Both the position numbers and the translations under genes were made by a program. The notes beneath the pieces are model-generated. The model was not told where the DNA came from. It made no database searches and saw only the letters and a list, made by a program, of their open reading frames with translations. This document shows, piece after piece, positions 15,220 through 62,839 of a stretch of 64,000 nucleotides of DNA. Within the stretch, counting starts at the first letter, position 1; each line of letters starts with the position of its first letter. The stretch is from Prevotella sp. (GTDB taxonomy: Bacteria > Bacteroidota > Bacteroidia > Bacteroidales > Bacteroidaceae). Where the stretch lies: positions 45,675-109,674 of the forward strand of contig JAFZBK010000004.1 of the NCBI GenBank assembly GCA_017561825.1, given 5' to 3'.

Positions 15220-15246
15220 ATAGTTCATAGATCATAGTTCATAGTT
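15220..15246 (+). repeat. Heptamer array between adaptor and pump genes
   Basis: Units atagttc, atagatc, atagttc and atagtt follow one another with an exact 7-bp period and end just before the pump ATG at 15249. See the finding on 7-bp arrays. Confidence 0.8.
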
Positions 15247-15248
15247 AT

Positions 15249-18200
15249 ATGACATTTACGACATTTATCAAACGCCCGGTACTCTCCACGGTGATCTCCA
15301 TCGTGATTGTGCTTTTGGGTATTATCGGACTGACCACGCTGCCTATTGAGCAGTATCCGGACATTGCGCCGCCTACCGTTGTGGTCTTCACCAGCTATCC
15401 TGGTGCCGATGCAGAGACAGTAAAGAATTCCGTGCTCGTCCCACTGGAGGAGAGCATCAATGGTGTGGAGGGTATGGACTACCTCTCCTCATCAGCTGGC
15501 TCAGGTTCTGCCAGCATACAAGTGTTGTTCCGTCAAGGCATGAATGCCGATATGTGTGCGGTGAACGTTCAGAACCGTGTTCAGCAGGCATTGGCCTTAC
15601 TGCCGGCTGAGGTTACCCGTATCGGTGTGACGGTGATGAAGCGTCAGACCTCTCAGGTGATGATGTTCACGCTGACCTCCGATGGTCGTTACGATGACAA
15701 GTTCCTGACGAACTACTCTAATATCAACATCGTTCCCGCCATCAAGCGTATCCAGGGTGTGGGTGACGTGCAGTCGCCAGGTGTGAAAACCTACTCTATG
15801 CGTATCTGGTTGAAGCCCGAGGTGATGAAGCAGTACAACTTGATGCCGAGCGACATCAGTGGTGTACTGGCAGAACAGAATATCGAGGCGGCACCTGGTA
15901 AGTTCGGTGAAGAGTCGAACGTGGCCTTTGAGTATGCCATGCGCTATACGGGTCGTCTGAAGACTGAAGAGGAGTTTGGGAACATCGTTATCTCCAGTGA
16001 TGCCAATGGTAACACGCTGAAGTTGAAGGATGTGGCACGAATTGAGTTGGGTGGCTTGCAGTACAGCGTATCCATGAAGAACAACAACATCCCCTCAGTG
16101 ATGGGTATGGTACAGCAGATTGCCGGTTCCAACGCTAACGAGATTGCCAAGCAGGTGAAGGCCGAGCTGAATGAGCAGGCTAAGCTGTTCCCGCCGGGAA
16201 TGACCTACAAGATCAACTACGATGTAACGGAGTTCCTCTATGCCTCTATCGAGGAGGTGGTGTTCACGCTCATCATGACGCTGATCCTGGTGTTCCTTGT
16301 GGTGTATGTGTTCTTGCAGGACTTCCGTTCTACGCTCATCCCGCTGATTGCCGTACCAGTGTCATTGATTGGTACGTTCTTCTTCCTGAAGATCTTCGGA
16401 TTCTCCATCAACCTGCTTACGCTGTCGGCCTTGCTTCTGGCTATCGCCATCGTGGTGGATGACGCTATCGTGGTGGTGGAGGCGGTACATGCCAAGTTGG
16501 ATCAGGGATACAAGAGTTCACTTACCGCGTCTATCGATGCCATGAACGAGATTTCAGGCGCCATCATCTCCATCACCCTTGTGATGGCCTCAGTGTTCAT
16601 TCCTGTGTCGTTCATCGGTGGTACGAGCGGTACGTTCTATAGAGAGTTCGGTGTTACCATGGCGGTGTCAATCTTTATCTCGGCTTTGAACGCCTTGACC
16701 TTGTCACCTGCCCTCTGTGCTATTTTCCTGAAACCGCACGATGAGAACGGCAATGAAGTGAAGATGTCACGCATCGACCGTTTCCATGCTTCATTCAATA
16801 CTGCATACGACAAGGTGCTGGGCAAGTATAAGAATGGTGTGCAGAAACTGGTGCGTAAGCCGATCATCATCGGTCTTGCTGTCATCCTTGGTATCGCCGT
16901 ATTGGCCACCACAATGTTCACAACCAAGACAGGTCTGGTACCAAGCGAAGATACAGGTACGCTGTTTTGTACCATTTCCATGCCGCCGGCTACTTCTGTG
17001 GCAAGAACACGTCAGATCATCGATCAGGTTGACTCGATGCTTGCTACGAACCCCGCCATCCAGAGTCGTGAGCAGATCCAGGGTTATAACTTCGTTGCCG
17101 GTTCCGGTTCCGATCAGGCTACGTTCATCCTGAAACTGAAACCGTTCTCTGAACGACAGAAGGGATTCTGGTGGAAACTCTCAGGATTGTGGCAAGGCGA
17201 CGGAATCTATCGTTTCCTCGTCAATCCTTATGATGCCAACTCTGTGTTGGGATTGATTTATAAGCAGACCGCTGCCATCAAGGATGCTCAGGTACTGGCA
17301 TTTGCGCCGCCGATGATTCCTGGTTTCTCTGCCAGCAGTGGTGTGACATTGGTGATGCAGGACCGTACAGGTGGTAATCTGAACCGTTTCTTCGAGGTTA
17401 CTAAGGAGTATTTGGCCGAGCTGAATAAGCGTCCTGAGATCCAGACCGCCCAAACCAGTTACAACCCGAACTACCCACAGTATATGATTCATGTGGATGT
17501 TGCTAAATGTAAGCAGGCAGGCATATCACCGTCAACCATCCTCAGTACGCTGCAGGGTTACTATGGCGGTCTATATGCATCTAACTTCAATGCCTACGGT
17601 AAGCTCTACCGTGTGATGGTACAGGGTGATCCTTCCACACGAATGACTCCCGAGAGTCTGGGTAGTGTATATGTACGCACCCCGAACGGTATGTCACCGA
17701 TCTTGGAGTATTGTGAGTTGGAGCGTGTGTATGGTCCTTCGAACATCAACCGTTTCAACCTCTTCACCTCCATCAACGTGACAGCTACTGTGGCTAATGG
17801 CTATTCTTCCGGTGAGGCCATCAAGGCTTGTCAGGAGGTGGCTGCGCAGTACCTGCCCGCTGGTTATACCTATGATTATTCTGGTTTGACCCGTTCAGAG
17901 GCTGCTTCCAGCAATTCAACGGCATTGATCTTCGTACTCTGCTTCATCTTCATCTACCTGATTCTGAGTGCCCAGTACGAGAGTTATATCCTGCCGTTGG
18001 CCGTGGTGCTCTCTGTACCTTTCGGTTTGGCAGGTGCTTTCCTCTTCACGCAGCTGTTCGGTCATTCGAACGATATCTACATGCAGATCTCATTGATTAT
18101 GTTGATCGGTCTGTTGGCCAAGAACGCCATCTTGATCGTACAGTTCGCCTTGGAGCGCCGCGAAACAGGTATGGCCATTTCATGGTCAGCTGTGCTGGGT

Positions 18201-18506
18201 GCTGCCGCTCGTTTGCGTCCTATCCTCATGACGTCACTCGCCATGATCGTAGGTCTGCTGCCGATGATGTTCGCCACGGGTGTGGGTAAGAACGGTAGTC
18301 AGACGCTGGGTGCTGCCGCCGTGGGTGGTATGCTTATCGGTACGCTGCTCCAGATCTTCGTGGTGCCCACCTTGTTCGTCATCTTCCAGAATCTGCAGGA
18401 GAAGATCTCCCCGATGAAGTTCGATGATGAGGAGAATCCTGATGTAGCTGCCGAGCTGGCACAGTATGCACATTCTAAACCTGTGGACTACGAATTGGAG
18501 AAATAA
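15249..18506 (+). CDS. RND efflux inner-membrane transporter (HAE1 family, AcrB-like)
   Basis: The 1085-residue pump has the two-fold RND layout: TM1 (TFIKRPVLSTVISIVIVLLG), a large periplasmic loop, TM2-TM6, a second loop and TM7-TM12. Proton-relay residues Asp404-Asp405 are visible in TM4 (AIAIVVDDAIVVVEAVH), with the matching Lys958 in TM10 (GLLAKNAILIVQFA). Other signatures are SYPGADAETV and FIGGTSGTFYREFGVTMA. Length is normal for the HAE1 group. It expels drugs, bile salts or detergents by proton exchange as a trimer with the adaptor and channel encoded on either side. Confidence 0.95.
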   Translation: MTFTTFIKRPVLSTVISIVIVLLGIIGLTTLPIEQYPDIAPPTVVVFTSYPGADAETVKNSVLVPLEESINGVEGMDYLSSSAGSGSASIQVLFRQGMNADMCAVNVQNRVQQALALLPAEVTRIGVTVMKRQTSQVMMFTLTSDGRYDDKFLTNYSNINIVPAIKRIQGVGDVQSPGVKTYSMRIWLKPEVMKQYNLMPSDISGVLAEQNIEAAPGKFGEESNVAFEYAMRYTGRLKTEEEFGNIVISSDANGNTLKLKDVARIELGGLQYSVSMKNNNIPSVMGMVQQIAGSNANEIAKQVKAELNEQAKLFPPGMTYKINYDVTEFLYASIEEVVFTLIMTLILVFLVVYVFLQDFRSTLIPLIAVPVSLIGTFFFLKIFGFSINLLTLSALLLAIAIVVDDAIVVVEAVHAKLDQGYKSSLTASIDAMNEISGAIISITLVMASVFIPVSFIGGTSGTFYREFGVTMAVSIFISALNALTLSPALCAIFLKPHDENGNEVKMSRIDRFHASFNTAYDKVLGKYKNGVQKLVRKPIIIGLAVILGIAVLATTMFTTKTGLVPSEDTGTLFCTISMPPATSVARTRQIIDQVDSMLATNPAIQSREQIQGYNFVAGSGSDQATFILKLKPFSERQKGFWWKLSGLWQGDGIYRFLVNPYDANSVLGLIYKQTAAIKDAQVLAFAPPMIPGFSASSGVTLVMQDRTGGNLNRFFEVTKEYLAELNKRPEIQTAQTSYNPNYPQYMIHVDVAKCKQAGISPSTILSTLQGYYGGLYASNFNAYGKLYRVMVQGDPSTRMTPESLGSVYVRTPNGMSPILEYCELERVYGPSNINRFNLFTSINVTATVANGYSSGEAIKACQEVAAQYLPAGYTYDYSGLTRSEAASSNSTALIFVLCFIFIYLILSAQYESYILPLAVVLSVPFGLAGAFLFTQLFGHSNDIYMQISLIMLIGLLAKNAILIVQFALERRETGMAISWSAVLGAAARLRPILMTSLAMIVGLLPMMFATGVGKNGSQTLGAAAVGGMLIGTLLQIFVVPTLFVIFQNLQEKISPMKFDDEENPDVAAELAQYAHSKPVDYELEK

Positions 18507-18518
18507 AAGGATTTGAAT

Positions 18519-19928
18519 ATGAAGAAGATAGTATTAATGTCGTTTGCAGTCCTGCTACTGTCGGGCTGCGGACTCTATACCAAATATGAGCGCCCTGACG
18601 TGAATACCGAAGGCTTGGTTCGCGACCCGCTGAACCCCAACGATACGCTTTCTGTGGGAAGGATTATTGATGGACAATGGACAGCGGTGAGTGGGCAGGA
18701 TGAGAATTTCGGTAATATGCCATGGCGTAGCGTGTTCACTGATCCGAAACTGCAGGAACTGATCCAGCAGGGTCTGGATAAGAATGCCAACCTGCTCAAT
18801 GCCGCCCTCAACGTGAAGATGGTGGAGGAGCAACTGAAGGTGGCAAAGCTCGCTTTCATTCCTGGCTTCACGTTCTCTCCGCAGGGAACCATCTCCTCAT
18901 GGGATGGAAAGACCACCAAGGCTTACTCACTGCCTGTGACTGCTTCGTGGAGTGTTGACCTCTTTGGAAACTTGCTGAACCAGAAGCGTAGTGCGCAGAT
19001 GGCCCTGTTGGCCACCAAGGACTATCAGGTGGTGGTGAAGACCAATCTCATCAGCAATATCGCGAATCTCTATTATACACTGCTGATGCTCGACCGTCAG
19101 GTGGAGATTGTCAATAACATGAGCGACCTCACCAAAGACACCTGGGAGAAGATGAAGGTGATGAAGGAAACGAAGATTGGCTACCGTTCCACAGCAGTGC
19201 AGAGCGCTGAGGCGAACTATTATTCTGTAGAGGCACAGAAAACTGACTTGTTGCGACAGATCCGCGAGATGGAGAACTCTCTCTCCCTGCTCATCGGACA
19301 GCCTGCGCAGACCATTGCCCGTAGTACTTTGGAGGAGCAGTCACTGCCTACCAACCTTGCTACTGGCGTGGGTATCCAGATGCTGAACAACCGTGCTGAC
19401 GTGCACGCTGCCGAGATGCAGCTGGCTGGATGTTTCTATGACATCAATACTGCCCGCAGTCGTTTCTATCCCAACATTACGATTTCAGGAACAGGTAGCT
19501 ATACCAATAACAACGGATTGGTGAATCCGGGTAAGATCCTGCTGAGTGCTGTGGGTAGTCTGGTACAGCCCATCTTCCAGCATGGACAGATTGTTGCCGG
19601 ACTGAAAGTGGCAAAGATGAAGTACGAGCAGGCCTATAACACCTGGCAGCAGAGCGTGCTCGCTGCAGGTAGTGAGGTGAGCAACGCCCTTGTACTTTAC
19701 AACTCCAGTGCCGAGAAGAGTGCCATTGAAGCCAAGCAGATCGAGGTACTGCAGAAGAATGTAGAGGATACCAGAGCCTTGATGGCCAGCAGTAGCACCA
19801 CCTATCTCGAAGTAATCCAGGCGCAGAGCAGTCTGCTCAGTGCCCAGCTCTCGAAGGTGGCAGACGACTTCCATAAGATGCAGGCCGTTGTGAACTTGTA
19901 TCAGGCGTTGGGAGGAGGCGCAGAGTAA
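18519..19928 (+). CDS. Outer-membrane efflux channel (TolC/OprM family lipoprotein)
   Basis: Starting at the ATG at 18519, which lies 12 bp after the pump stop, the precursor has lipobox LLSGC with Cys17. The rest shows the duplicated OEP layout: two long-helix repeats (DPKLQELIQQGLDKNANLLNAALNVKMVEEQL and QMLNNRADVHAAEMQLAG), with strands such as LPVTASWSVDLFGNL and FYPNITISGTGSY between. A TTG two codons earlier would also be in frame but spoils the signal peptide start. It completes the tripartite pump with the preceding two genes. Confidence 0.93.
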   Translation: MKKIVLMSFAVLLLSGCGLYTKYERPDVNTEGLVRDPLNPNDTLSVGRIIDGQWTAVSGQDENFGNMPWRSVFTDPKLQELIQQGLDKNANLLNAALNVKMVEEQLKVAKLAFIPGFTFSPQGTISSWDGKTTKAYSLPVTASWSVDLFGNLLNQKRSAQMALLATKDYQVVVKTNLISNIANLYYTLLMLDRQVEIVNNMSDLTKDTWEKMKVMKETKIGYRSTAVQSAEANYYSVEAQKTDLLRQIREMENSLSLLIGQPAQTIARSTLEEQSLPTNLATGVGIQMLNNRADVHAAEMQLAGCFYDINTARSRFYPNITISGTGSYTNNNGLVNPGKILLSAVGSLVQPIFQHGQIVAGLKVAKMKYEQAYNTWQQSVLAAGSEVSNALVLYNSSAEKSAIEAKQIEVLQKNVEDTRALMASSSTTYLEVIQAQSSLLSAQLSKVADDFHKMQAVVNLYQALGGGAE

Positions 19929-19959
19929 ATTGAGAAGTTATAATTGAAAATTGAGAATT
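19928..19959 (+). repeat. Heptamer array between the channel gene and the LpxA-like gene
   Basis: Units aattgag, aagttat, aattgaa, aattgag and aatt run at a 7-bp period from the last base of one stop codon to the next ATG at 19960. Confidence 0.75.
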
Positions 19960-21607: not shown

Positions 21608-21624
21608 AATTTGCAAATTTACTG

Positions 21625-21705
21625 CAAAAGTACGGATAAGTGTGCACAATGCAAAAAGAAAAACCATTTTTTCTTTTGCATTGCACTCGTTTTTTTGTAA
21701 TTTTG
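21625..21705. promoter_or_regulatory. Divergent promoters within one palindrome (radical SAM and ftsX)
   Basis: Minus strand: TTTG (21652-21655), 19 nt, TACTTTTG (21625-21632). Plus strand: TTTG (21675-21678), 19 nt, TAATTTTG (21698-21705). The two -33 boxes lie in the arms of a central hairpin (aatgcaaaaagaaaa / ttcttttgcatt). Both promoters match the Bacteroidetes consensus, so one palindrome serves both genes. This is the cleanest example of the repeated promoter palindrome. Confidence 0.75.
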
Positions 21706-21736
21706 CAGGCAATAAGTTGTATACAACCTTTCTGAA

Positions 21737-22615
21737 ATGGGAAAGAAAAGAACGAAAACCCGCGACCACAAAGGATTGCAGGCTATTACTCTATGTATAA
21801 GTACGGCGATGGTGCTCATCTTGTTGGGCATGGTCGTTTTCTCCGTACTCACAGCCAAGAACCTTTCTACTTATGTTAAGGAGAACCTGACCGTGACGAT
21901 GATGTTGTCGGAGGATATGACGAATCCTGAAGCTTTGCGGCTCTGCAGGACCCTGAAGACACGTCCTTATGTCAGCGGTCTTACGTTCATCAGTAAGGAA
22001 GAGGTGCTCGAGGAACAGAAGCAGGAGCTGGGCGTGGATCCGAGTGAGTTTGCCGGAGGTAACCCCTATACTAGCAGTATTGAGTTACGGTTAGCTGCCG
22101 ACTATGCTAACCAGGACTCGCTGAAGTGGATTGCCAAGGAACTGAAAAAGAATACACAGGTGCAGGAGTTGGAATATCCATTGGACCTGATCAATGATGT
22201 GAACCGCACACTGAACAAAACCAACCTGGTGTTGCTGGTGCTGGCAATACTGCTCAGCATTGTTTCCTTCTCGCTGATCAACAACTCCGTGAAGCTGGGT
22301 ATTTATGCCCGTCGTTTCTCCATTCACACCATGAAACTGGTAGGTGCCTCATGGGGCTTCATTCGTCGTCCGTTCATGAAGAAGGCTTTCTTTATTGGCG
22401 TATGTGCGGCACTGATTGCCATTGCAGTTTTGGGCGCAGGAATCTATCTCCTCTATACTTATGAGCCTGGTGTATTGGCAGTCATTACTCCTGAGGTGAT
22501 GATTATCACGGCTGTAGCCGTTTTGGTGTTCGGTATTCTCATTACCATGCTCTGCTCCTATTTCTCAGTGAACAAGTTCCTGAAGATGAAGGCAGGCGAA
22601 CTATATAAAATATAA
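21737..22615 (+). CDS. ftsX: Cell division protein FtsX
   Basis: The 292-residue permease-like protein has the FtsX layout: a basic cytoplasmic N-terminus (MGKKRTKTRDHKG), TM1 near 17-38, an extracellular domain (about 40-155) with TVTMMLSEDM and YVSGLTFISKEEVLEEQKQELG, then TM2 (NLVLLVLAILLSIVSFSLINNSV), the RRFSIHTMKLVGAS loop, and TM3-TM4. FtsX pairs with FtsE to regulate peptidoglycan hydrolases at the septum. ftsE is not adjacent here, which is common in Bacteroidetes. It leads a run of plus-strand genes including uppP, another cell-wall gene. Confidence 0.88.
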   Translation: MGKKRTKTRDHKGLQAITLCISTAMVLILLGMVVFSVLTAKNLSTYVKENLTVTMMLSEDMTNPEALRLCRTLKTRPYVSGLTFISKEEVLEEQKQELGVDPSEFAGGNPYTSSIELRLAADYANQDSLKWIAKELKKNTQVQELEYPLDLINDVNRTLNKTNLVLLVLAILLSIVSFSLINNSVKLGIYARRFSIHTMKLVGASWGFIRRPFMKKAFFIGVCAALIAIAVLGAGIYLLYTYEPGVLAVITPEVMIITAVAVLVFGILITMLCSYFSVNKFLKMKAGELYKI

Positions 22616-22655
22616 TTGATAATTGACAATTGACAATTGATAATTAAGAATTGAC
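22614..22655 (+). repeat. Heptamer array (six units) between ftsX and the DUF3098 gene
   Basis: aattgat, aattgac, aattgac, aattgat, aattaag and aattgac follow with an exact 7-bp period. The array starts at the ftsX stop and ends 3 bp before the next ATG, filling the whole spacer. Confidence 0.85.
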
Positions 22656-22658
22656 AAT

Positions 22659-25547: not shown

Positions 25548-25575
25548 AGATGAGAGATGAAAGATGAGAGATGAA
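25548..25575 (+). repeat. Heptamer array at the start of folK
   Basis: agatgag, agatgaa, agatgag and agatgaa repeat with a 7-bp period. The array begins 1 bp after the queA stop and covers the ATG at 25564 used for folK, so the first codons of folK are repeat-derived. Confidence 0.8.
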
Positions 25576-26106
25576 AGATTGGGAGTCAGACATAAGGTGT
25601 ATTTAGGTCTGGGTAGTAACTTGGGCGACTGCCAAGCGAACATCGAACGGGCCATTGAGTTGATTAGCGAACGAGTGGGGGAGGTAATCCGTCGCTCGTC
25701 GCTCATTGAGACTGAACCCTGGGGCTTCGACTCGGAGAACAAGTTCCTCAATGGCGTCATCCTCTGCGAAACCACCCTCACACCTCGACAAGTACTGCGC
25801 AAGACCCAAAAGATTGAAAGCGACATGGGGCGCAAAAAGAAAACTGCCCCCTCTGCTTCACCACTTTGCTCATCAAAGAATTCTCAATTGTCAATTGTCA
25901 ATTGTCAATTAGTAGATGCGAAACCTCGCATCTACTCCGATCGTCCCATCGACATAGATATCCTGCTCTATGACGATCTTACCGTGGATGAACCCGATCT
26001 GAAGATTCCACATCCGCTGATGCAGGAACGTGAGTTTGTGATGATACCACTTAAAGAAATTGGAGATTCTCACTTAATCACGACCTTTTTACCTTTGAAG
26101 ATATAG
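25564..26106 (+). CDS. folK: 2-amino-4-hydroxy-6-hydroxymethyldihydropteridine pyrophosphokinase with repeat insert and altered C-terminus
   Basis: FolK activates the pterin for folate synthesis. Family motifs are YLGLGSNLGD at 13-22, ETEPWGF and FLNGV, RPIDIDILLYDDL at 127-139 and IPHPLMQEREF at 148-158. Between the usually adjacent segments SDMGRKKKT and YSDRPIDID there is an extra stretch of about 28 residues (near 94-121) containing NSQLSIVNCQL, the translation of a tcaattg heptamer array, still in frame. The C-terminus (SHLITTFLPLKI) is antisense to a remnant gene end. The N-terminus is uncertain, since the ATG lies in another heptamer array and the GTG for Val12 is an alternative. The active-site motifs are intact, so the enzyme may still work. 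Confidence 0.87.
   Translation: MRDERLGVRHKVYLGLGSNLGDCQANIERAIELISERVGEVIRRSSLIETEPWGFDSENKFLNGVILCETTLTPRQVLRKTQKIESDMGRKKKTAPSASPLCSSKNSQLSIVNCQLVDAKPRIYSDRPIDIDILLYDDLTVDEPDLKIPHPLMQEREFVMIPLKEIGDSHLITTFLPLKI
25884..25910 (+). repeat. Heptamer array inside folK
   Basis: tcaattg three times, then tcaatt, with a 7-bp period, lies within the folK reading frame and is kept open in frame. Three 7-bp units equal seven codons. Confidence 0.85.
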
Positions 26107-32151: not shown

Positions 32152-35100
32152 TTGAAGAAAGGTAAGATCATACGGAGCTTCTTTGTTGCCCCTCCTCATG
32201 GAGGGGTTGGGGTGGCCTTATCTCTTATCTCTCATCTCTCATCTCTCATCTTCTTCCTTCTCCTCCTTGTTTCCTGCTCCAACGATAAGAATACGGCGCA
32301 GTCGCGTTGGTGGCATTCCTTCAACGCCAAATACAATACCTATTTTAATGGTTCGCAAGCCTATATCGATGCTTCTTTGGAAAAGGAGAACAGTCATCGT
32401 GACAACTTCACGGAGATGATTCCCCTCTACCCTGTCAGTAACAAGAACAGTATGGAAATCGGTAAGGGCAACTACAACAAGGCCATTGAGAAGAGTCAGA
32501 AGGCCATCAAGCGCCATAGCATCACCAGACGACCCGAATGGACCAAGAGTAGAAAGAAGACGGAACGTGACATCGAGTGGCTCAACCGCAGCGAATACAA
32601 CCCCTTCCTATGGAAAGCGTGGATGCTGATGGGAAGATCGCAATTTCATCAAGGAGCCTTTGATGAGGCGGCTTCCACGTTTGCCTATATGAGCCGACTG
32701 TACCAGACGCAGCCTGCTATCTACGGAAAGGCGCGGGCTTGGCTGGCCAAGTGCTACATCGAGCAGGACTGGATCTACGATGCTGAGGATGGGATCAATA
32801 AGATGAAACGCGACTCGCTCGACTGGCGGGCCGTGAAGGAATGGGACTATACCTTGGCTGACTACTATATCCATACGCAACGTTACGAGGAGGCTATCCC
32901 CTATCTGAAGAAGGTGATCAAACATGAGATGCGGAAGAAGCAGAAAGCACGCGAGTGGTATCTGTTAGGTCAGATAGAAGCGGCACTGGGACATCGCGAC
33001 AACGCCTATCAGGCTTTCCGACACGTTATCCGTCAGAGTCCTCCCTACGAACTGGAATTCAATGCCCGCATCGCCATGACCGAGGTGATGGCAGGTACGA
33101 AGGATAAGCAGATGATCAGCCGACTGAAACGTATGGCGGCGTCTGACAAGAACAAGGATTATCTCGACCAGGTGTATTACGCCATCGGTAACATCTATCT
33201 CTCCAAACGCGACACACTGAAAGCTATTGAGGCCTATGAGAAAGGTAACACCAAAGCTACACGCTCGGGCATTGAGAAAGGTGTGCTGCTGCTTCATTTA
33301 GGTGATCTCTATTGGGCGCGTGAGAACTTCAGTGATGCGCGTCGTTGCTATGGCGAGGCTATTGGTCTGCTCGACAAGGACCGTGATGACTATGAGCAAC
33401 TGTCGAATCGTTCGAAGGTTCTCGACGAGCTGGTGCCGCATACGGATGCCATCCATCTGCAGGACTCGCTGCAGGCACTGGCTAAGATGAGCGAGGATGA
33501 CCGTAATGCTGCTATCGACCGTGTGATTGAAGCACTGAAGAAGAAGGAGAAGGAAGAACGTAACCGACTGGCAGAGGAGGAGGTAAGAAAACAGCAGGCT
33601 GGCGGTGAGAACTTTGATGATATCATCCCCAACGACGGTCCTACAGCTGCTCGACAGCAACAGCCTCAGCAGCAACAGGGCAACAGCATCTGGTATTTCT
33701 ACAACCCAACAGCCGTGAACCAAGGTAAGAGTAACTTCCAACGACTGTGGGGAAAGCGTGAGAATGTGGATGACTGGCAGCGTATAAACAAAACCGTTGT
33801 GGCTGGTCCAACGGATCTTGCTGACATGACTGACGAGCAGCGGGATTCATTGGAACAGGCCACGTTGGCTGCTGACTCCTTAGCACAGGCAACTGACAGT
33901 GTGCAGAACGATCCGCATAAACGGGAGTACTATCTGGCACAGATTCCTTTCACTGAGGAGCAGGTGGAAGAGAGTAATATGATCATCAAAGATGGCCTCT
34001 ATCACAGTGGCGTGATCTTCAAGGATAAGCTCGATAACCTGCGTTTGAGTGAGAAACAGCTGCGCCGTCTGACGGATCAGTATCCTGACTTTGAGCACAT
34101 GGATGATGTGTTCTATCACCTGTGGCTGCTCTACCAGCGGAAGTTGCAACCGCAGATAGCTGATACGTATCTCGACCAACTGAAAGAACACTATCCAGAG
34201 AGTCAGTGGACAACCTTGCTCAATGATCCGTACTTCGAAGAGAATGCCCGATTCGGGGCACATATCGAGGACTCGCTCTATGCGGCTACCTATGCGGCCT
34301 TCAAGGCGGGACGACTGACGGAGGTGCGTACAAATACCATCCTATCTGCCCAACGATTCCCCATAGGCGAACATAGGGATAAGTTCATCTTTATCGGTGG
34401 ACTGGCTAAGCTGAACGATGGTGACGGCAAGGGCTGCGTGGAGGATATGCAGAAGGTTGTGAGCGATTATCCGCAGAGCGATGTGAGTGCCTTGGCAGGT
34501 ATGATCATCAATGGTGTGAATGCCGGCAGACGACTCCATGGGGGTAAGTTCGACATGGGTGATGTGTGGACCAGACGGTCGGAGGTGCTGCAAGACAGCG
34601 ACTCTATTGCCGCAAGGGTGTTTACTGCGGAACGTAACGACCGCTTCGTCTTCATGATGGCCTATGAGCCTGATTCAGTCAACGAGAACCAACTGCTCTA
34701 TGAGATGGCTCGCTTTAACTTCACCAGTTTCATGGTGCGTAACTTCGATATTGAAGTAGAGGATCTCGATGGTCTGCACAGGATGAGACTCAGTGGGTTC
34801 CTGAACTACGACGAGGCATGGCAATATGCACGTCAGCTGTATAAGAACGAGGCGGTTACACGACTGCTCAGGAAGGCGCGAATGATTCTTATCAGTGAGC
34901 CGAACCTTGAATTGCTCGGCACACAATATAGCTATAATGACTATGATAAGTTCTACGAAGAGCATTTCGTACCGCTGAAGATCAGTACGGTACAACTGCT
35001 CACGGAACCGGCTGACCTTCCTGTAGAAGAGGAACCTGCCTCATCAACAACGCAGGAACAGGAAGAGATCCTCAACGGTGGCGTCTTGGATGACAATACC

Positions 35101-42542: not shown

Positions 42543-42547
42543 GCTTA

Positions 42548-42578
42548 AAGTTCAAAGCTCAAAGTTCAAAGTTCAAAA
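42548..42578 (+). repeat. Heptamer array between psd and pssA
   Basis: aagttca, aagctca, aagttca, aagttca and aaa run with a 7-bp period in the short spacer and end at the pssA ATG (42580). Confidence 0.85.
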
Positions 42579-42579
42579 T

Positions 42580-44260: not shown

Positions 44261-44280
44261 ATTATTTGTTTAATAATCTC

Positions 44281-44308
44281 TTGCTTCTTGCTTCTCACCT
44301 CTCACCTC
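44281..44308. repeat. Heptamer array between birA and pyrH
   Basis: ttgcttc, ttgcttc, tcacctc and tcacctc run with a 7-bp period and end at the birA stop codon. Confidence 0.8.
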
Positions 44309-45036
44309 TAATCTACCACAAACTGTATTTCCTTAAAGGCGAACGAGAGCAACTCGCGTCCGCATAGCAGTAACAGATGACCGTCATCAGTCACGTCCAC
44401 TAACGTCATTCGCTCCATGATGCCGTCAGGATAACGGTAGTCGTGTATCTCCCCTCTCCTATACAGTGCCGAACGGTAATTCGAACGAATCGAATGCCAG
44501 TCTCCTTTCACCACCTTATTATTATAATAGTCCCATCGTGCCACAATCTTCTCCAGCATCTCCTTCCGGTCAACCTCATGACCCAGGATCTGTACCAGCG
44601 ACACGGGGTTCGGAGCATCGCTATGGAACACCTGCTGATTCACGTTGATACCCGTACCGATGATACAGTCCTTGATCTCACTGCCCTGCAGCTTCGTCTC
44701 AATCAGCGTTCCGCCAATCTTCTGGTCGTTCCAATAGATATCGTTCGGCCACTTGATCTTGATACCGTCGGTATAGCTGTCAAGCACATCTTTCAGCGCC
44801 AAGGCATTGGCCATGGAGAGGATGAACTGATCCTTTGCGGGCACCTGCGGGTGGAGAAGGATACTGAACATGAGGTTCTTCCCAGCCTCACTCTCCCAAT
44901 GGTTTGAACCACAGCCACGACCAGCCGACTGATAGTCGGTTGTCACGACTGTCATGTCCTCACCCTCCTCAGACTGATATCCTTTCAGCCAGTCGTTGGT
45001 GGAATCCGTCTCTTTAAGATATATCGTCTTGTTCAC
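44308..45036 (-). CDS. birA: Biotin--[acetyl-CoA-carboxylase] ligase (no repressor domain)
   Basis: The 242-residue enzyme activates biotin to biotinyl-AMP and attaches it to the carrier protein. Motifs are LKETDSTNDWLK, SAGRGCGSNHWES (the biotinyl-AMP loop, G-R-G-C-G in place of the usual G-R-G-R-x-G), IKWPNDIYWN with the lysine that follows, KIGGTLIE and IIGTGINVNQ. There is no N-terminal helix-turn-helix, so this is the group I monofunctional enzyme and not a regulator. Divergent promoters lie between it and tadA. Confidence 0.93.
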   Translation of the reverse strand: MNKTIYLKETDSTNDWLKGYQSEEGEDMTVVTTDYQSAGRGCGSNHWESEAGKNLMFSILLHPQVPAKDQFILSMANALALKDVLDSYTDGIKIKWPNDIYWNDQKIGGTLIETKLQGSEIKDCIIGTGINVNQQVFHSDAPNPVSLVQILGHEVDRKEMLEKIVARWDYYNNKVVKGDWHSIRSNYRSALYRRGEIHDYRYPDGIMERMTLVDVTDDGHLLLLCGRELLSFAFKEIQFVVD

Positions 45037-46504: not shown

Positions 46505-46550
46505 ACTTGTCAATTATTATGTTTAATCTTTATTTTAATGTTTAATGTTT

Positions 46551-46634
46551 CATCTCTCATCTTTCATCTCTCATCTCTCATCTCTCATCTTTCATCTCTC
46601 ATCTCTCATCTCTCATCTTTCATCTCTCATCTAC
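46551..46634. repeat. Longest heptamer array: twelve units with a 28-bp super-period
   Basis: Twelve 7-bp units run from 46551 to 46634. Most are catctct, and catcttt occurs at 46558, 46586 and 46614, exactly every fourth unit, so a 28-bp block has itself been repeated about three times. The last unit covers the rsmI stop codon. Confidence 0.9.
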
Positions 46635-48071: not shown

Positions 48072-48077
48072 AAATCA

Positions 48078-49626: not shown

Positions 49627-49658
49627 AAAAAAGAGGTCTTCACGACCTCTTTTTTTTA
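49627..49658 (+). terminator. Terminator after tRNA-Lys
   Basis: GAGGTC (49633-49638) pairs with GACCTC (49644-49649), extended by A/T pairs and followed by eight T. It overlaps the 3' end of the GH5 gene on the other strand by a few bases. Confidence 0.85.
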
Positions 49659-50807
49659 TTTCTCGAGAGCCTTCCTGCTCATCAGCAACTCCACAAGCGG
49701 TCTATCCTTATAGCTATGGCGCTGCTGATCCCAGAAACCGAAGTCAGCATCGTAGCACCAAGTGGTCCAGGCGATATCGAACTCATCGAACACCGTAAGC
49801 ATATCCTTTGTCCACTGGTACGCCAACTCACGGTCAACAGGCTCATACACGCCCCACTCGCCGCAGAACAGCTGCAATCCGTATTTCTTCGCCACTTCGA
49901 TGGCATCTTTGAAGTCAGCCCTGATGCGGTCGATGTTAAACTCCTCCTTGGTAAAGGGCTCCAGTTGCGGTTTGATTGAGTCAGGCGCTGCGTCATAGTC
50001 ATCTTTCGACACGAGCACACCTGGATAGTTCACCTTTCCCTTGTACTGACCGATAGGAGTCCACCATGCCCCGTAGTGTGTCAGGATCATCGGGTTATAG
50101 TAGTGGAACGAGAGGATGATGTTCTTGTCGCCCTCGGGCACCTTCAAGTACTTCATCGTCTCATATCCCTGCCAGCGGTTCGAACCCACCACGAGTGTAC
50201 GCTGTGGTTCCCGTTCCCTCAGTGCCTTATGCACCTTGGCCACCAGTTGGTTCCACTGCTCATGCTCGTCGGCCACGGGCTCGTTCATGAACTCATAAGC
50301 CACCCAGTCGGTACTGTAGTCCTTAAGCGCGTCAGACAGCTGATACCACAGGTTGATCAGTCCTTGCTGCGCCTCCTCAGAGGTGAATAGCGTGTTGGCC
50401 GCCTTATCCCCTTCGTTCACCGCATTGAAGTAATGCGAACGAATGATATGCAGGTCAACGATAGCCCGCAGGTTATGCTTTCTGGCCAGATCGAGCGCGT
50501 TGGTCAGCAGCCCCCATGCCTCCTCCAGCTTGTTCCCCTGCTCATCCCAGAACTGCACCTCGTCGATGGGGATACGCACGAAGTCGAACCCCAGCTGTTG
50601 CAACCGCTCGAAGTCATCCTCCTGGATATGCAGTTTACGCATCTCACCTCTGGCCTCCGACTGTGACAGCCAGTGACTCAAGTTCGTTCCTCTCTTAATG
50701 CGGAAGTTGTTCACTCCGTCATTGCTCTTGTTACCGCATGCTACGGTCATTAGGGCAACGGCGCAAATCACCGCACCCCTCAACATCTTCTTTCCAATAC
50801 TCCTCAT
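49656..50807 (-). CDS. Glycoside hydrolase family 5-like lipoprotein
   Basis: The precursor (383 residues from the ATG at 50807) has lipobox MTVAC with Cys24. The TIM barrel shows GH5 features: KRGTNLSHWLSQ, FDFVRIPIDEVQFWDE, RAIVDLHIIRSHYF, the acid/base Glu176 in AYEFMNEPVAD, HYYNP and the nucleophile Glu317 in FCGEWGVYEP, then TWCYDADFGFWD. The family includes endoglucanases, mannanases and related enzymes; the substrate is not decided by sequence alone. It sits at the downstream end of the hybrid-regulator gene cluster, suggesting a role in a deacetylated or acetylated polysaccharide. A TTG in the heptamer array upstream would be a false start. Confidence 0.88.
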   Translation of the reverse strand: MRSIGKKMLRGAVICAVALMTVACGNKSNDGVNNFRIKRGTNLSHWLSQSEARGEMRKLHIQEDDFERLQQLGFDFVRIPIDEVQFWDEQGNKLEEAWGLLTNALDLARKHNLRAIVDLHIIRSHYFNAVNEGDKAANTLFTSEEAQQGLINLWYQLSDALKDYSTDWVAYEFMNEPVADEHEQWNQLVAKVHKALREREPQRTLVVGSNRWQGYETMKYLKVPEGDKNIILSFHYYNPMILTHYGAWWTPIGQYKGKVNYPGVLVSKDDYDAAPDSIKPQLEPFTKEEFNIDRIRADFKDAIEVAKKYGLQLFCGEWGVYEPVDRELAYQWTKDMLTVFDEFDIAWTTWCYDADFGFWDQQRHSYKDRPLVELLMSRKALEK

Positions 50808-50809
50808 AA

Positions 50810-50831
50810 TTTTCAATTTTCAATTTTCAAT
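50810..50831. repeat. Heptamer array between the GH5 and metallo-beta-lactamase genes
   Basis: ttttcaa three times with a 7-bp period fills the spacer between two minus-strand genes. Confidence 0.8.
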
Positions 50832-50832
50832 T

Positions 50833-51576
50833 CTACTGATAGTTTCGGATGCGTACTTCCGTACTACTATTCTCTAGCAGATCCGCTACTTTCTGAATCT
50901 CCGTATTCGAGTAATGATACGGGAAGAGCACCTTGGGCTGAACGATACGCGCCGCGTTCGCCACCTGCTCCGGTGTCATCGTATAAGGCTGGTTACACGG
51001 CATGAAGGCCACGTCGATATCCTTGATGGCAGCCATCTCCGGAATATCCTCCGTATCACCTGCGATATAGATACGCAGACCGTCGAGCGTGATGATGAAC
51101 CCGTTATCGCGCCCCTTCGGATGGAATTGCTCGCGCCCCGGGGTACAGTTATATGCCGGCACCGCCTCCACCTGGATGTCAGCCGCGAGTGTCAACTGAT
51201 CGCCGTTCGCCATCACCTTCCCGTAGCCCAGCATCTCCGCGCATCGCTGATTAGTGATCAGCTGCGTCTGCTCCTTGGTGAGCGCGGCAATGGCCTGTTT
51301 GTCAAGGTGGTCGCCATGCTCATGCGTCACGAAGATATAGTCAGCCTTCGGCATGGTGGAATAGTCGGTAGCGGGCGGGATATTCGTCACGGGGTCAATC
51401 TCGATCTCTTTCCCGTCGTAGCAAATGCGTATGCTACCGTGTTTGATACAGTGGAACACCACCTCTTTGCCAGTAGGTGTTTTGAACACGTCCACGCCTT
51501 CTGTCTCAGCAGGTTTCGTGGCTTTGCAGGAAAACAACGCCATAACGCTTAGTAGTAATACATAAATCCTTTTCAT
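50833..51576 (-). CDS. Metallo-beta-lactamase-fold lipoprotein (UlaG/L-ascorbate lactonase-like)
   Basis: The 247-residue precursor has lipobox ALFSC with Cys17. The metallo-beta-lactamase motif THEHGDHLD gives His85, His87, Asp89 and His90. The later segment IYIAGDTEDIPEM supplies the bridging Asp, and FPYHYSNTE the last His. Such UlaG-like proteins hydrolyse lactone or phosphodiester bonds; the substrate is unknown here. It is between the PIG-L and GH5 genes with short spacers, in what looks like one operon starting from the hybrid-regulator gene region. Confidence 0.85.
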   Translation of the reverse strand: MKRIYVLLLSVMALFSCKATKPAETEGVDVFKTPTGKEVVFHCIKHGSIRICYDGKEIEIDPVTNIPPATDYSTMPKADYIFVTHEHGDHLDKQAIAALTKEQTQLITNQRCAEMLGYGKVMANGDQLTLAADIQVEAVPAYNCTPGREQFHPKGRDNGFIITLDGLRIYIAGDTEDIPEMAAIKDIDVAFMPCNQPYTMTPEQVANAARIVQPKVLFPYHYSNTEIQKVADLLENSSTEVRIRNYQ

Positions 51577-52746: not shown

Positions 52747-52753
52747 TTTAGTT

Positions 52754-52788
52754 GATAATTTTCAATTTTCAATTATCAATTTTCAATT
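52754..52788. repeat. Heptamer array between the PIG-L and esterase genes
   Basis: gataatt, ttcaatt, ttcaatt, atcaatt and ttcaatt follow at a 7-bp period from 52754. Confidence 0.85.
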
Positions 52789-52811
52789 TGGCTTGCGGCA
52801 TGGCCAAGCCA

Positions 52812-53918
52812 TTACCACCATTTCATTATCATTCGCAGGTAAGCAGTGAGCTCACCCGCCATTTTCTCATGTTGCCAGATACTGGGATGCCAGCTGGCGC
52901 CGTAGTACAGTTCTCCCGTCTGTGGTGTAAAGTCGAAGCGGTACACCTCCTTGTCACCGTTCTTGTACGCCTCATCCCTCAACTCGTTGAGCGTTGCCTG
53001 TTGCAGCTCCATCTCCTTTCCGTTGAGCATTGAACCCGTCAGCAGCACGATCTTCGCGTTGGGGTAATGACCGCGAACGGTCTTCAGGAATTTCCTGTAC
53101 GCCTCGGTAAACAGCTTGATGTCGAAGTTCGGTGTGGAAAGGTCGTTGGTGCCCAGGTTGATGCACACCAGGTCGGGCTGGTAGCGCTGGAAATCCCACC
53201 ATTCGCGCTTGTCGTTGAACAGCGTGTATTCGTACAGCGCGGGCATGTTATCGGGGTTACCCGTTCTCGGACCGTTATAGTTTCTGTATATGCCGATGCC
53301 GCTGCGTGCCACCACCCAGTGCTGCGCCTTCAGGTTCCGTGCTGTGATGGCGGCGTACGAGTAGTAGTGGTTCTCCGTCTCGTACTCAAACGGGTCGCTC
53401 CTCTCGATACTCTCGTTACCGTAGCCGCAGGTGATAGAGTTCCCGATGAACTCGATCTTGCGTTGTGGTAGAGCGGGTGGCGGAGCTAACTGTCTACCCT
53501 CATCGAGGATGAACCCTTTGAACACCGGCTTCAAGTCGAGTCCTTCCACGATGTACATCAGCTTCACTAAATGCCTGCCCTCGGGCAGGGCTGTGGCGAT
53601 GGTCACCACTGAGTCCTTGGGCGCAAGAAAGCCCACCTTGAACGGCTCGGCCTGATCGATCTGTGCCATGAAGTATCCGCTCATGGGTTTCGCCATCACC
53701 TTGAGTGATGTGCCCTCGAAGCACGCCATAATCTGCGTTCCCGGGTACGAGAACGTCGGCGCGTCGGGATTCGCAAAACTGATGCGCCCCGTATAGACAA
53801 TCCGCGGGTCGGATGCTTTAATCACAGTTCCCTTCAGCGGGATTGTTGTCGAAGCCATTACTGCTCCGCTCATCATCAAGCAGCACACAGCTGCAATCAC
53901 ACGTTCGATATTAATCAT
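52812..53918 (-). CDS. CE2-type SGNH esterase (acetyl polysaccharide esterase)
   Basis: The 368-residue precursor has a signal peptide (cleavage near MASTTIPL). Residues about 25-140 form the jelly-roll domain of carbohydrate esterase family 2 (YTGRISFANPDAPTFSYPGTQI, then FKGFILDEG). The SGNH part has Ser161 in EFIGNSITCGYG, NLGTND with the Asn and Asp, and His344 in ASWHPSIW, with no Asp partner visible as in other CE2 enzymes. CE2 enzymes remove acetyl groups from mannan or xylan chains. The start codon region overlaps a heptamer array. It is probably in one operon with the PIG-L, metallo-beta-lactamase and GH5 genes, downstream of the regulator gene. Confidence 0.88.
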   Translation of the reverse strand: MINIERVIAAVCCLMMSGAVMASTTIPLKGTVIKASDPRIVYTGRISFANPDAPTFSYPGTQIMACFEGTSLKVMAKPMSGYFMAQIDQAEPFKVGFLAPKDSVVTIATALPEGRHLVKLMYIVEGLDLKPVFKGFILDEGRQLAPPPALPQRKIEFIGNSITCGYGNESIERSDPFEYETENHYYSYAAITARNLKAQHWVVARSGIGIYRNYNGPRTGNPDNMPALYEYTLFNDKREWWDFQRYQPDLVCINLGTNDLSTPNFDIKLFTEAYRKFLKTVRGHYPNAKIVLLTGSMLNGKEMELQQATLNELRDEAYKNGDKEVYRFDFTPQTGELYYGASWHPSIWQHEKMAGELTAYLRMIMKWW

Positions 53919-53957
53919 TAATTATTTATACTTAATCTTAAATTTTTAATCTTTAAT
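53911..53957. repeat. Heptamer array at the esterase start codon
   Basis: ttaatca, ttaatta, tttatac, ttaatct, taaattt, ttaatct and ttaattt run at a 7-bp period and cover the ATG of the esterase (53916-53918, minus strand). Confidence 0.7.
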
Positions 53958-58004: not shown

Positions 58005-58032
58005 GTTAAGAGTGGAAAGTGTAGAGTGTAGA
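58005..58032. repeat. Heptamer array upstream of the hybrid regulator
   Basis: gttaaga, gtggaaa, gtgtaga and gtgtaga follow at a 7-bp period in the leader of the regulator gene. Confidence 0.7.
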
Positions 58033-58053
58033 ATTTGCGCCACTGCACCTTCG

Positions 58054-58086
58054 TTCCCTCCCTATGGGAGAGGACTAGGGAGGGGA
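58054..58086 (+). repeat. REP-like hairpin, copy 4
   Basis: CCCTCCC, tat, GGGAGAGG, then ACTAGGGAGGGG. Same family as the copies at 26174, 32189 and 48140. Confidence 0.7.
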
Positions 58087-58124
58087 TTCCCTTACTCCTA
58101 ACTCCACATTCCTCATTCCACTGG

Positions 58125-61010: not shown

Positions 61011-61988
61011 TTACATTTGATTATTGTAACTACTACGGTATTTCCCTTCTTCCTTATCTTCGAGCATGCTGAGGTAGCTGTTGTAACGACTCTCGGCGAT
61101 GTAGTGTTCTTCGAGTGCTTTTCGTACGGCGCAACCTGGCTCATGGGTGTGGGTGCAGTTGCGGAAACGACAGTTCTTGGAGAAGTGGAAGATCTCCTTG
61201 AAGTAGCCGCAGATCTCTTCGGGCTCCATGTCGAAGGTGCCGAAGCCTTTGATGCCGGGAGTGTCGATTAACCAAGACTGTTCGATACAGTCTTGGTTAA
61301 TAGTGGAATGTGGAATGTGGAATGTGGAATGAGATATGGGGATCATTTCGGAGAAGGTGGTGGTGTGCATGCCGGCGTTATGGGCCTCGGAAATTTCGGC
61401 AGTGCGGAGGTTGGCTTCTGGTACGATTTTATTTAACAAAGTTGACTTCCCCACTCCACTGTTTCCACTGAACACTGTGATCTTCCCTTCGAGAAGCGGG
61501 AGCAGCTGATCCATACCCTGCCCCGTTACTGCTGACACCTGCAGACACTGGTAGCCCACGGTCTCGTACAGGTTCACCATCAGATCCTGGTAATGACGTT
61601 CATCATCATCGAGCAAATCGGTCTTGTTAAAGAGCAAGATGACAGGCACCCGATACGCCTCTGCAGACGCAAGGAAGCGGTCGATGAAGGTAGTGCTGGT
61701 CTGGGGATAATTTACCGTTACCACCAACACGGCTTGATCCACGTTAGCAGCAATGATATGACTCTGTTTACTAAGATTCGGCGACTTGCGAATGATGTAG
61801 TTTTTGCGGTCGGCTATCTCCGTGATAAAGCCTTCTGAAACCTCCACTCGGTCGCCCACAGCCACAGGATTCGTGCTCCGTATGCCGCGCAGACGGAAGT
61901 TTCCTTTTATTTTACAATCGGCCGTGGTACCATCGTCGAAAAGGACGGTGTACCACGAGCCGGTATTTTTAATTACTAAGCCTGTCAA
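61011..61988 (-). CDS. rsgA: Ribosome small subunit-dependent GTPase A with repeat insert
   Basis: RsgA is a circularly permuted GTPase that helps mature the 30S subunit. Order: OB domain (1-75), NKTD (G4) at 121-124, G5 region, GNSGVGKST (G1) at 175-183, HTTT (G2-like) at 208-211, DTPG (G3) at 242-245 and a zinc knuckle C273-x4-C278-x-H280-x5-C286. Between SEMIP and WLIDTPG there are about 20 extra residues (near 219-238, [21 protein letters not shown]), read from four tggaatg heptamers and a perfect 14-bp inverted repeat. The frame is intact. Length (325) exceeds the family norm by the insert. It ends the frr-rsgA pair. Confidence 0.93.
61268..61331. repeat. Inverted repeat plus heptamer array inside rsgA
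   Basis: TTAACCAAGACTGT (61268-61281) is the exact complement of 61287-61300 with a TCGAT loop. Four tggaatg units (61304-61331) follow at a 7-bp period. Together they encode the extra RsgA loop. Confidence 0.85.
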
Positions 61989-62581: not shown

Positions 62582-62612
62582 CAAAGTTAGCGCATTTTTT
62601 TGAAACCGCCAA
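62582..62612 (-). promoter_or_regulatory. Promoter of frr-rsgA
   Basis: Minus strand: TTGG (62609-62612), 19 nt, TAACTTTG (62582-62589). The leader to frr is about 25 nt. Confidence 0.65.
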
Positions 62613-62693
62613 CTTTTTCGGGAAAAAACTTGATTTAGATTTTGTGGAAAGAGTAAGGTTATTTTTTTCGAGTAAGAGGAAGGATTTATTTTC

Positions 62694-62721
62694 GAGTAAG
62701 GAGGAAGGAGTAAGGAGGAAG
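62694..62721. repeat. Heptamer array upstream of frr
   Basis: gagtaag, gaggaag, gagtaag and gaggaag alternate with a 7-bp period. Confidence 0.8.
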
Positions 62722-62783
62722 GAGAATAGTTTTCAGAAACAGGCTCTATGTCATGGTTACTTATAACTCAGTACATATCTCCT

Positions 62784-62839
62784 TACTCCATCGTCCCTAC
62801 TCCTTACTCCATCGTCCCTACTCCCTACTCCATCGTCCT
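62784..62839. repeat. Heptamer array running into the methionine sulfoxide reductase gene
   Basis: tactcca, tcgtccc, tactcct, tactcca, tcgtccc, tactccc, tactcca and tcgtcct follow at a 7-bp period. The reductase stop codon (62825-62827) and its last few codons (RTME) lie in the array. Confidence 0.85.

Follow-up and report, generated by a model that had tools for sequence, protein, structure and literature searches.

What are the short tandem arrays that crowd the gene junctions of a Prevotella genome, and why do they favor a unit of seven nucleotides? The question is raised by a 64,000-nucleotide stretch of Prevotella sp. (GenBank assembly GCA_017561825.1, contig JAFZBK010000004.1, positions 45,675 to 109,674), called the window below. 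By PorX, the closest named relatives of this genome are for the most part Prevotella or Prevotellaceae assemblies of ruminant origin. Heptameric repeats have long been known from a scatter of bacteria, and there is no settled account of their origin. The original prediction, read from the letters of the window, listed 16 heptamer arrays and proposed a Bacteroidota counterpart of known heptamer repeats. Such a counterpart is present, but the prediction's picture of repeats in junction spacers leaves out both arrays lying in frame in housekeeping genes and two-armed stem-loop elements. We favor, at a probability of roughly 55%, the reading that these arrays and elements are tolerated selfish or mutational insertions whose heptamers are homogenized by slippage and by hairpin template switching.

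Tandem Repeats Finder (TRF; minimum score 30) returned a period-7 row at every one of the 16 listed positions, four of them weak (scores of 31 at 19927, 34 each at 44279 and 44293, 33 at 53910 and 34 at 58009). Among window rows scoring at least 45, 13 have period 7 and one has period 9, with none at 6, 8 or 10. Beyond the TRF run on the window, arrays were counted by a tolerant scan comparing periods 5-13, and genes were called by a simple in-house script, with identities taken from NCBIfam where scanned. The sample of the source genome comprised the window and 20 further stretches, 459,111 bp in all (91.5% coding by this simple caller), or about 15% of an assembly of 2,976,949 bp in 69 contigs that is 88% complete. 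It holds 51 period-7 arrays, against 0, 3, 2, 4, 1, 2, 4 and 1 at periods 5, 6, 8, 9, 10, 11, 12 and 13, and one first-order Markov shuffle of the same sample holds none at period 7; the predicted preference for seven over neighboring unit lengths is borne out. Exact runs of at least 10 number 61 at lag 7; among the remaining lags between 4 and 20, apart from the multiple 14, none exceeds 7. In the 281 spacers of the sample (35,223 bp) there are 24 period-7 arrays, two at period 9 and none at 5, 6, 8 or 10, while shuffled spacers give a mean of 0.22 and a maximum of 2 in 50 shuffles, so that in this part of the genome the expectation of an excess in spacers also holds. Periods 14 and 21 were treated as multiples of seven. 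Period 22, with 15 arrays in the sample, is a separate repeat, a tandem 22-bp repeat of the AAACTAGGCTGATTAAGCATAG type found at window 26384-26509 and also at L020 ~12131-12214.

The excess was then followed in other genomes, one per species. A sister genome, G118 (99% complete), has 60 period-7 arrays in 383,214 bp sampled, versus 1, 6 and 17 at periods 6, 8 and 9. The corresponding counts are 27 versus 11, 8 and 8 in other stretches of the genus (743,996 bp), 59 versus 29, 23 and 31 in other Prevotella-type named loci (1,377,302 bp), and 7 versus 3, 1 and 3 in 380,861 bp drawn from 20 further families of the order. Period-7 arrays are absent from the sampled part of several single-contig or isolate genomes, and two 50-kb stretches of E. 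coli K-12 gave zero arrays at periods 5 to 12. The heptamer excess is thus extreme in the source species and its sister and modest in the other Prevotella-type samples. By their 7-nucleotide excess and their mainly intergenic location, the arrays belong with heptameric simple sequence repeats (the long simple sequence repeat, or LSSR, class of Mrazek, and STRR-like repeats). In the parts of the literature covered, heptanucleotides are described as the commonest class of long-unit repeat in many bacteria, with a polymerase-slippage account given (PMC4679880; PMC4692102). Since a 7-nucleotide mode is already known elsewhere, unit length by itself is not new.

What is new is an anatomy in which complementary heptamer arms change together around a conserved and sometimes inverted core, and the residence of such sequences in frame in housekeeping genes. 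The arrays form two populations: AT-rich solo arrays without a described core, and G+A-rich arrays, some of which are the arms of dispersed stem-loop elements. A typical element consists of an outer tip, often TTTCGAG/CTCGAAA, a heptamer arm of about 3-5 units, a core, and a complementary heptamer arm. The common core, GAGAATAG...CATATCTC, spans about 40-70 nt, and the whole element about 100-130 bp. Among inverted pairs, 6 of 36 in the source sample and 19 of 64 in the sister have 7-periodic arms; the other tested periods gave one pair each at 5 and 6 in the source, and one at 8 and four at 9 in the sister. Counted from the arrays, 4 of 51 in the source and 14 of 60 in the sister sit in inverted pairs. 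As short non-coding sequences with terminal inverted repeats and many copies, the elements resemble miniature inverted-repeat transposable elements (MITEs), and in their in-frame insertion into conserved genes they resemble Rickettsia-type palindromic elements. An Rfam search of the window and of four further stretches (L291, L292, L295 and L008), at the gathering score, returned tRNAs only and no other known structured RNA.

The pairing of the arms is preserved while their letters change. In an alignment of 15 elements, 13 from the sister and two from the source, 92.3% of the cells of a 20-bp stem are paired, and 12 of the 20 pairs have changed on both sides. Double-change cells number 42, against 16.2 in shuffles (0 of 500 reach 42) and 1-11 in slid versions of the alignment. 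The units themselves differ between genomes: GTGGAGT/GAGGAGT in most sister copies, GAAGCAA/GAGGCAA in the copies viewed in G006, GAGAGGA in G034, and a mixture in the source. For instance, the core of one source copy (L307) is 90% the same as that of a sister copy, but the units are GAGGAAC/GAGGAAG in place of GTGGAGT, the arms being 70 and 73% alike; this copy alone was used, because the comparison of core and arm at a fixed offset yields meaningless values where the inner boundary differs.

Four elements are common to the source and the sister, and in two of them the core is inverted, namely the element upstream of frr (window 62694-62823) and one at C1:23865 of the source. The frr element of the sister pairs its inverted core with GAAGCAA/GAGGTGA arms. 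The core is not inverted in the other two, at L010:18522 of the source and within an M6-peptidase-type gene. A fifth candidate (L297:8144) was dropped, with ordinary gene sequence between its arms and the second arm absent in the source. At six sites a sister core is missing from the source, which instead has a single arm (two sites), a unit-sized remnant, no element (KsgA), an empty place near a stop codon, or an unrelated longer spacer. Where the sister has full elements, the source has a single arm at L016, with the core letters GAGAAT at its end, and an isolated arm at L022.

Of the 21 intergenic two-armed elements in the two genomes, 15 have a stop codon within 30 nt and 4 a start codon. 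Full elements also reside in frame: in the sister in KsgA, ArgC (with a different core family) and the M6-peptidase-type gene, and in the source in an M16 peptidase gene and a sulfatase-domain gene. The KsgA that carries one has 355 residues, and its PF00398 match is stretched over 270 residues for 231 profile positions; the corresponding values are 366 for 341 in ArgC and 211 for 178 in the M16 peptidase.

A covariance model (R1) built from the same 13 sister and two source copies, and run on both strands with 150 candidates scored per genome, matched 96 times in the sister, 74 in G006, 40 in the source, 13 in G034, once in G007 and not at all in G059; being built mostly from sister copies, the model favors that genome in these counts. 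Under stricter filters (35 candidates per genome), 28 of 120 genomes of the genus, the source included, match at 1e-5. Of ten matches viewed in ten other genomes, all ten have inverted 7-periodic arms. Further two-armed cores are flanked by TTGACA-, TGTTGCA- or TGCAAAA-type arms (L291:3680, L304:2278, L086 and L130). Two of these settings are worth recording separately. L130:12333-13460 holds repeated units of about 300 bp bounded by inverted TGCAAAA heptamer arrays, and L086:11999-12194, L181 and L304:2278-2467, from two different genomes, hold inverted TGTTGCA heptamer arms around an AT-rich palindromic middle.

AT-rich solo arrays make up 42 of the 51 arrays in the source and 24 of the 60 in the sister, and more than half of them (TTGACAA, TTGAAAA and AAAGTTC types) lie between co-directional genes. 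The original prediction regarded the units as unrelated; they do differ from site to site, but many belong to related families, such as TTGACAA/TTGATAA/TTGAAAA, and one 20-mer from the AATTGAC family gives 24 matches, some of them overlapping, at 18 places in the genome, with none for its reversed control. A letter skeleton shared by all heptamers was considered and is not claimed, because 14 rotations make a chance fit likely. Eleven IMG/VR contigs (L358-L368) contain an exact AATTGAC 27-mer array. A phage or plasmid origin of the core was considered and set aside, an exact core 20-mer being absent from IMG/VR and a 141-bp sister element having no plasmid or phage match.

Most arrays lie outside called genes (37 of 51 in the source, 45 of 60 in the sister). 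In the source, the junctions with an array number 26 of 234 where genes are co-directional, 5 of 35 where they converge and 1 of 30 where they diverge; the sister has 25 of 189, 3 of 27 and 1 of 26 in the same order. It follows that the arrays track gene ends more than divergent promoter regions. Seeding exactly at stop codons is not claimed, the left boundary being spread around the stop; in 15 of 18 source cases two or three of the three stop-codon letters match the repeat register. An orientation linked to transcription was also tried for the AT-rich arrays and rejected, since their 31:7 ratio in favor of purine-rich coding strands compares with 91:36 in ordinary array-free AT-rich spacers (Fisher p 0.29).

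The remaining 14 source arrays are intragenic, in 12 called genes. Nine of these genes were domain-scanned and all have recognized domains (GSCFA, a guanine deaminase-type protein, a SpoU methylase, LysS, a DegT aminotransferase, MiaB, FolK, TsaE and RsgA); LysS, TsaE, RsgA, FolK and MiaB are conserved genes with in-frame arrays or arms. A single 7-bp step shifts the frame, so that unit-by-unit growth of arrays in needed genes is unlikely. Among the eight intragenic source arrays with a sister ortholog, six differ in length by a multiple of three (FolK 72, TsaE 0, RsgA 15, LysS 27, MiaB 42 and a HAD-type gene 99 bp), and two differ by 91 and 59 bp, in each case close to where the called gene begins. 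Judged from alignments, the intragenic inserts may occupy external loops. TsaE has a natural trap for inserts in the segment bounded by NEY and YHFDFYR: 110 loci gave 96 distinct versions, of which 70 have loops of 6-9 residues and 24 have loops of at least 12. Seven of these 24 long loops fit lag 7 best, with differing units, and some others hold G+C palindromes by eye. In the TsaE of L118 and L127, one common inserted palindrome lies between unlike heptamers (AATGTTC versus AACTCTC/AATTTTC), and RsgA has a comparable place, which holds heptamers or palindromes in other species. By eye, a CCCCTCC..GGAGGGG palindrome recurs in the TsaE, RsgA and MiaB inserts of several species.

Array turnover between the sister species is fast. 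The two genomes are close, with LysS 99% alike in amino acids and matched flanks about 77-94% alike in nucleotides. Of the 51 source arrays, 21 have a sister ortholog, where no array is scored in 11 cases, an array without a common 14-mer in nine, and one with a common 14-mer in one. In the reverse comparison, after exclusion of 6 of 66 rows that were duplicates from overlapping loci, 19 of the 60 sister arrays have a source ortholog, with no array in nine, a different one in nine and the same in one. Some of the nine different sister arrays have one letter changed per unit. TsaE is one example: both arrays are 42 bp long, and AAAGGTC in the source answers to AAAGTTC in the sister, with the same letter changed in all four units and one unit differing at one more letter. 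This is a concerted change within the array.

The arrays and elements of the window are as follows.

15220..15246, plus strand: ATAGTTC array, 3.9 copies by TRF, in the spacer between an RND adaptor gene (14012-15211) and an RND permease gene (15249-18506), both by NCBIfam.
19927..19959, plus strand: weak AAATTGA array (TRF score 31) between a NodT-type outer-membrane gene and lpxA (NCBIfam).
22603..22658, plus strand: AATTGAC/AATTGAT array directly after ftsX, followed by a short frame and then uppP (22883-23695).
25548..25579, plus strand: AGATGAG/AGATGAA array directly past the queA stop codon.
25879..25936, plus strand: AATTGTC array, then a hairpin with an 11-bp stem, in frame in folK (25564-26106; TIGR01498).
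32217..32251, plus strand: ATCTCTC array at the start of porW/sprE, with a TRF row at 32220-32251.
37318..37352, plus strand: AAAGGTC array in frame in tsaE, between NEY and YHFDFYR.
42542..42579, plus strand: AAAGTTC array filling the psd/pssA junction.
44279..44314, minus strand: GAGGTGA/GAAGCAA array (coding strand) between birA and pyrH.
46519..46632, minus strand: the longest array, 11.9 units, of GAGATGA/AAGATGA (coding strand) and TAAACAT-type units, between rsmI and a lipoprotein gene.
50804..50834, minus strand: TTGAAAA array (coding strand) at the junction of the genes at 50833-51576 and 49656-50816.
52752..52789, minus strand: TTGAAAA/TTGATAA array (coding strand) upstream of a glucosamine-6-phosphate deaminase-like gene.
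53910..53957, minus strand: weak, degenerate AGATTAA-type array (TRF 73% matches, score 33).
58009..58121, no strand assigned: opposed short arrays, GTGTAGA ... TCCACAT, flanking a G+C-rich palindrome.
61267..61338, minus strand: hairpin with a 15-bp stem and a GTGGAAT array, in frame in rsgA.
62694..62823, no strand assigned: two-armed stem-loop element upstream of frr, with a GAGTAAG/GAGGAAG arm, the common core and an inverted arm.

The original prediction held that arrays abut start or stop codons. This is correct in part, three of the 16 listed arrays being intragenic, in folK (25879), tsaE (37321) and rsgA (61303). Its separate arrays at 62694 and 62784 are the two arms of the frr element, which the covariance model also recovers (G000:C41:108380-108471, window 62706-62797), and its list lacks the porW/sprE array. 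That array encodes in frame part of a hydrophobic, lipoprotein-like signal (LSLISHLSSLIFFLLLLVSCS), the choice of start codon being uncertain. The rsgA array continues into GAGATATG, which resembles one end of the element core, and the site in the sister has GTGGAGT units and is 15 bp shorter. Elsewhere in the sister, the folK ortholog is 72 bp shorter at the array site, the ftsX-uppP site has no scored array but a shorter degenerate heptamer run and other sequence, and no array is scored at the orthologs of the longest array or of the TTGAAAA array at 50804..50834. The psd/pssA array is the sole source array that has a 14-mer in common with its sister ortholog.

Other repeats share the window with the heptamers. 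The G+C-rich palindrome (CCCCTCC..GGAGGGG, then GGGGTGG-like) is found at ~32189-32216, 48139-48160 and 58053-58090. A dispersed repeat of about 150-200 bp with TTTCTTTTCTCTGCGCCAAAGAAAAGAGG lies at 48061-48285 and has further copies in L008, L021 and the sister. Dispersed repeats of about 60-110 bp, partly self-complementary and with many sister matches on both strands, are found at 41642-41748, 47389-47498 and 21624-21715. At 27722-27777, upstream of the gene at 27864, there is a 9-bp TCCGGATTA tandem repeat that also shows periods of 18 and 27 bp.

Several accounts could explain these observations. Plain replication slippage would have arrays grow in place from chance sequence through a polymerase favoring 7-nucleotide slips, with no elements and no dispersal. 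Published work, in the parts covered, treats short-repeat satellites as local duplication errors (PMC6749651) and explains heptanucleotides by polymerase slippage (PMC4692102); the arrays here are degenerate and local, the two TsaE arrays represent a change of unit in place, and the AT-rich solo arrays, which are the majority, lack an element core. Slippage as the whole account is nevertheless doubtful, for single 7-bp steps cannot build in-frame arrays in needed genes, the same units recur at many loci, as the AATTGAC-family 20-mer does, and the source, sister and G006 genomes all carry dispersed copies of conserved cores flanked by complementary arms. The stem-loop elements could instead be MITEs or REPINs of the ordinary kind, mobilized by a known transposase, with the heptamers incidental. 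Their size, terminal inverted repeats, copy number, recurrent TTTCGAG tips and mostly intergenic, sometimes in-frame location all suit that account. It is unlikely all the same: matches to Y1_Tnp (PF01797) occur in 73 of 120 genomes of the genus but not in the sister, the nearly complete genome richest in model matches, which speaks against mobilization by RAYTs, while the source has one weak match at 24 bits; target-site duplications were also not seen by eye at the compared sites. We know of no ordinary MITE whose terminal repeats are rewritten copy by copy.

Under a cis-regulatory role, on the model proposed for TAACTGA repeats, junction arrays would serve as binding sites for an RNA- or DNA-binding protein or would adjust translation, and the stem-loops would be structures of 3' untranslated regions. 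Such a role would accord with the tilt of the arrays toward gene ends and with the placement of most intergenic elements near stop codons. It is rather improbable given that 20 of 21 orthologous places have either a changed unit or no scored array, that the purine-rich strand bias does not exceed that of array-free spacers, that the flanking genes are of diverse function, and that arrays also occur within coding sequence. Phase variation, with the number of 7-bp units toggling genes on and off, has a precedent in neuO of E. coli K1, whose heptanucleotide array gives the full-length product only if the count is divisible by three, according to the portion of the source covered (PMC13001214). 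Here the recognized genes are mostly housekeeping genes (LysS, TsaE, FolK, RsgA, MiaB and KsgA), the arrays are short and impure, and the frame is kept in most intragenic length differences, which makes contingency loci highly improbable.

Under the favored reading of tolerated insertions, arrays would arise from 7-bp-biased amplification plus insertion and would persist where an insertion is tolerated, as in the gap between stop and start, in length-variable protein parts or in a signal peptide. Slippage may homogenize the units within one arm, and hairpin-templated (quasi-palindrome) synthesis or recombination may copy arm onto arm and flip the core, while new copies would be inserted by a mobilizing activity. 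Some G+A-rich solo arrays are probably leftover single arms, and most elements and arrays are probably selfish or neutral passengers of the host.

A number of observations weigh against this reading. A core or tip motif is found on 1 of 42 AT-rich solo arrays in the source and on 0 of 24 in the sister, and on 6 of 22 G+A-rich solo arrays in the sister, two of these six being arms of an element overlooked by the inversion scan; these counts give no support for deriving AT-rich solo arrays and stem-loop elements from one source. Of the ten further genomes viewed, G080 alone has a recognizable core, the others sharing the type of arm and not the core. One source element (L344:220-347) has the same type of core between arms of period 8 (GCGGTGGC/T), so period 7 is not absolute. 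The frr locus could be explained by independent insertion at the same place, and in LysS a native segment is replaced, which is not a pure insertion. Hairpins do not in general accompany arrays (3 of 51 arrays have a hairpin within 5 bp, versus 1.7 expected at random intergenic places), and some of the 11 sister sites without a scored array still have short degenerate heptamers below threshold. Inspection by eye revealed no target-site duplication at the compared sites, where flanks have diverged and sites are damaged, some with lost bases. No mobilizing enzyme was found in a search confined to the Y1 transposase family.

A bolder version is considerably less likely. The elements may be self-rewriting mobile hairpins of about 100-130 bp in which both heptamer arms switch units together, sometimes to 8-letter ones, while the core stays and flips, and the scattered heptamers of Bacteroidota, and perhaps of other phyla, may be the debris of single arms. 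If so, the identity of the stem would be set by repetition and complementarity and not by sequence. Matched sites with and without elements, in-frame housekeeping copies and co-changing arms make the origin of heptamers testable. The in-frame copies also reveal that TsaE, RsgA, LysS, KsgA and other proteins naturally tolerate inserts, a point of relevance to annotation and protein evolution.

How do these repeats compare with known systems, as described in the parts of the cited papers covered? A limited literature search, with few subscription papers, found no published account of heptamer-armed elements with a conserved core, or of such repeats in Prevotella. Heptamer-derived satellites occur in other bacteria (PMC6749651). 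In Chloroflexus, a (GATAGRA)n family occupies 22 places in one genome, a dispersal like that seen here, but it has a single unit type and the parts covered describe no two-armed element (PMC6749651). TAACTGA repeats are found in Beggiatoaceae, Cyanobacteria and five Bacteroidetes (MacGregor 2015, PMC4679880). Like the present arrays, they are heptamer arrays near start codons, and the orthologous spacers of close relatives lack some of them; unlike the present arrays, they have one fixed unit, and no inverted element with a core appears in the parts covered (PMC4679880). None of the 51 source arrays has the TAACTGA consensus, and they do not belong to that family.

Another comparison is offered by the G-rich heptamers of Xanthomonas and Nostoc, GGGAATC and GGGGA(C/T)T (Rehm et al. 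2015, PMC4692102). They too form dispersed 7-nucleotide arrays, mostly between aligned genes, and two Xanthomonas genomes have 70 and 75 convergent (inverted) pairs. However, they have one unit type able to form G-quadruplexes (G4), with 83% in the same gene context between two relatives (PMC4692102). In the genomes compared here the units vary from copy to copy, orthologous sites differ in 20 of 21 cases, and the paired arrays of one clade share a conserved core.

Mobile palindromes resemble the stem-loop elements in other ways. Rickettsia palindromic elements (RPE) are short and lie in frame in many unrelated genes, but their stems are not described in the parts covered as heptamer arrays (PMC10969869, PMC3733652); here the arms vary between copies and co-vary around the core. 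BrickBuilt, a MITE of Porphyromonas gingivalis, from a related genus, likewise combines tandem repeats with inverted ends; it has a 23-nt minisatellite in its body and no 7-nt arms, and it is always intergenic (PMC4596501). REPIN/RAYT doublets share the plan of two inverted repeats around a middle at high copy (PMC3116915; PMC3733652). In contrast to them, the stems described here are 7-bp arrays, and the richest genome has no match to a Y1 transposase.

The heptamers of the STRR type in Cyanobacteria, another phylum, offer a last parallel. To our knowledge, complementary heptamer arms around a conserved core have not been described for them. Several STRR families reportedly coexist in one genome, with small dispersed repeats lying within the heptamer arrays, and the TsaE genes of L118 and L127, where one palindrome sits between unlike heptamers, are comparable to those small cyanobacterial elements.

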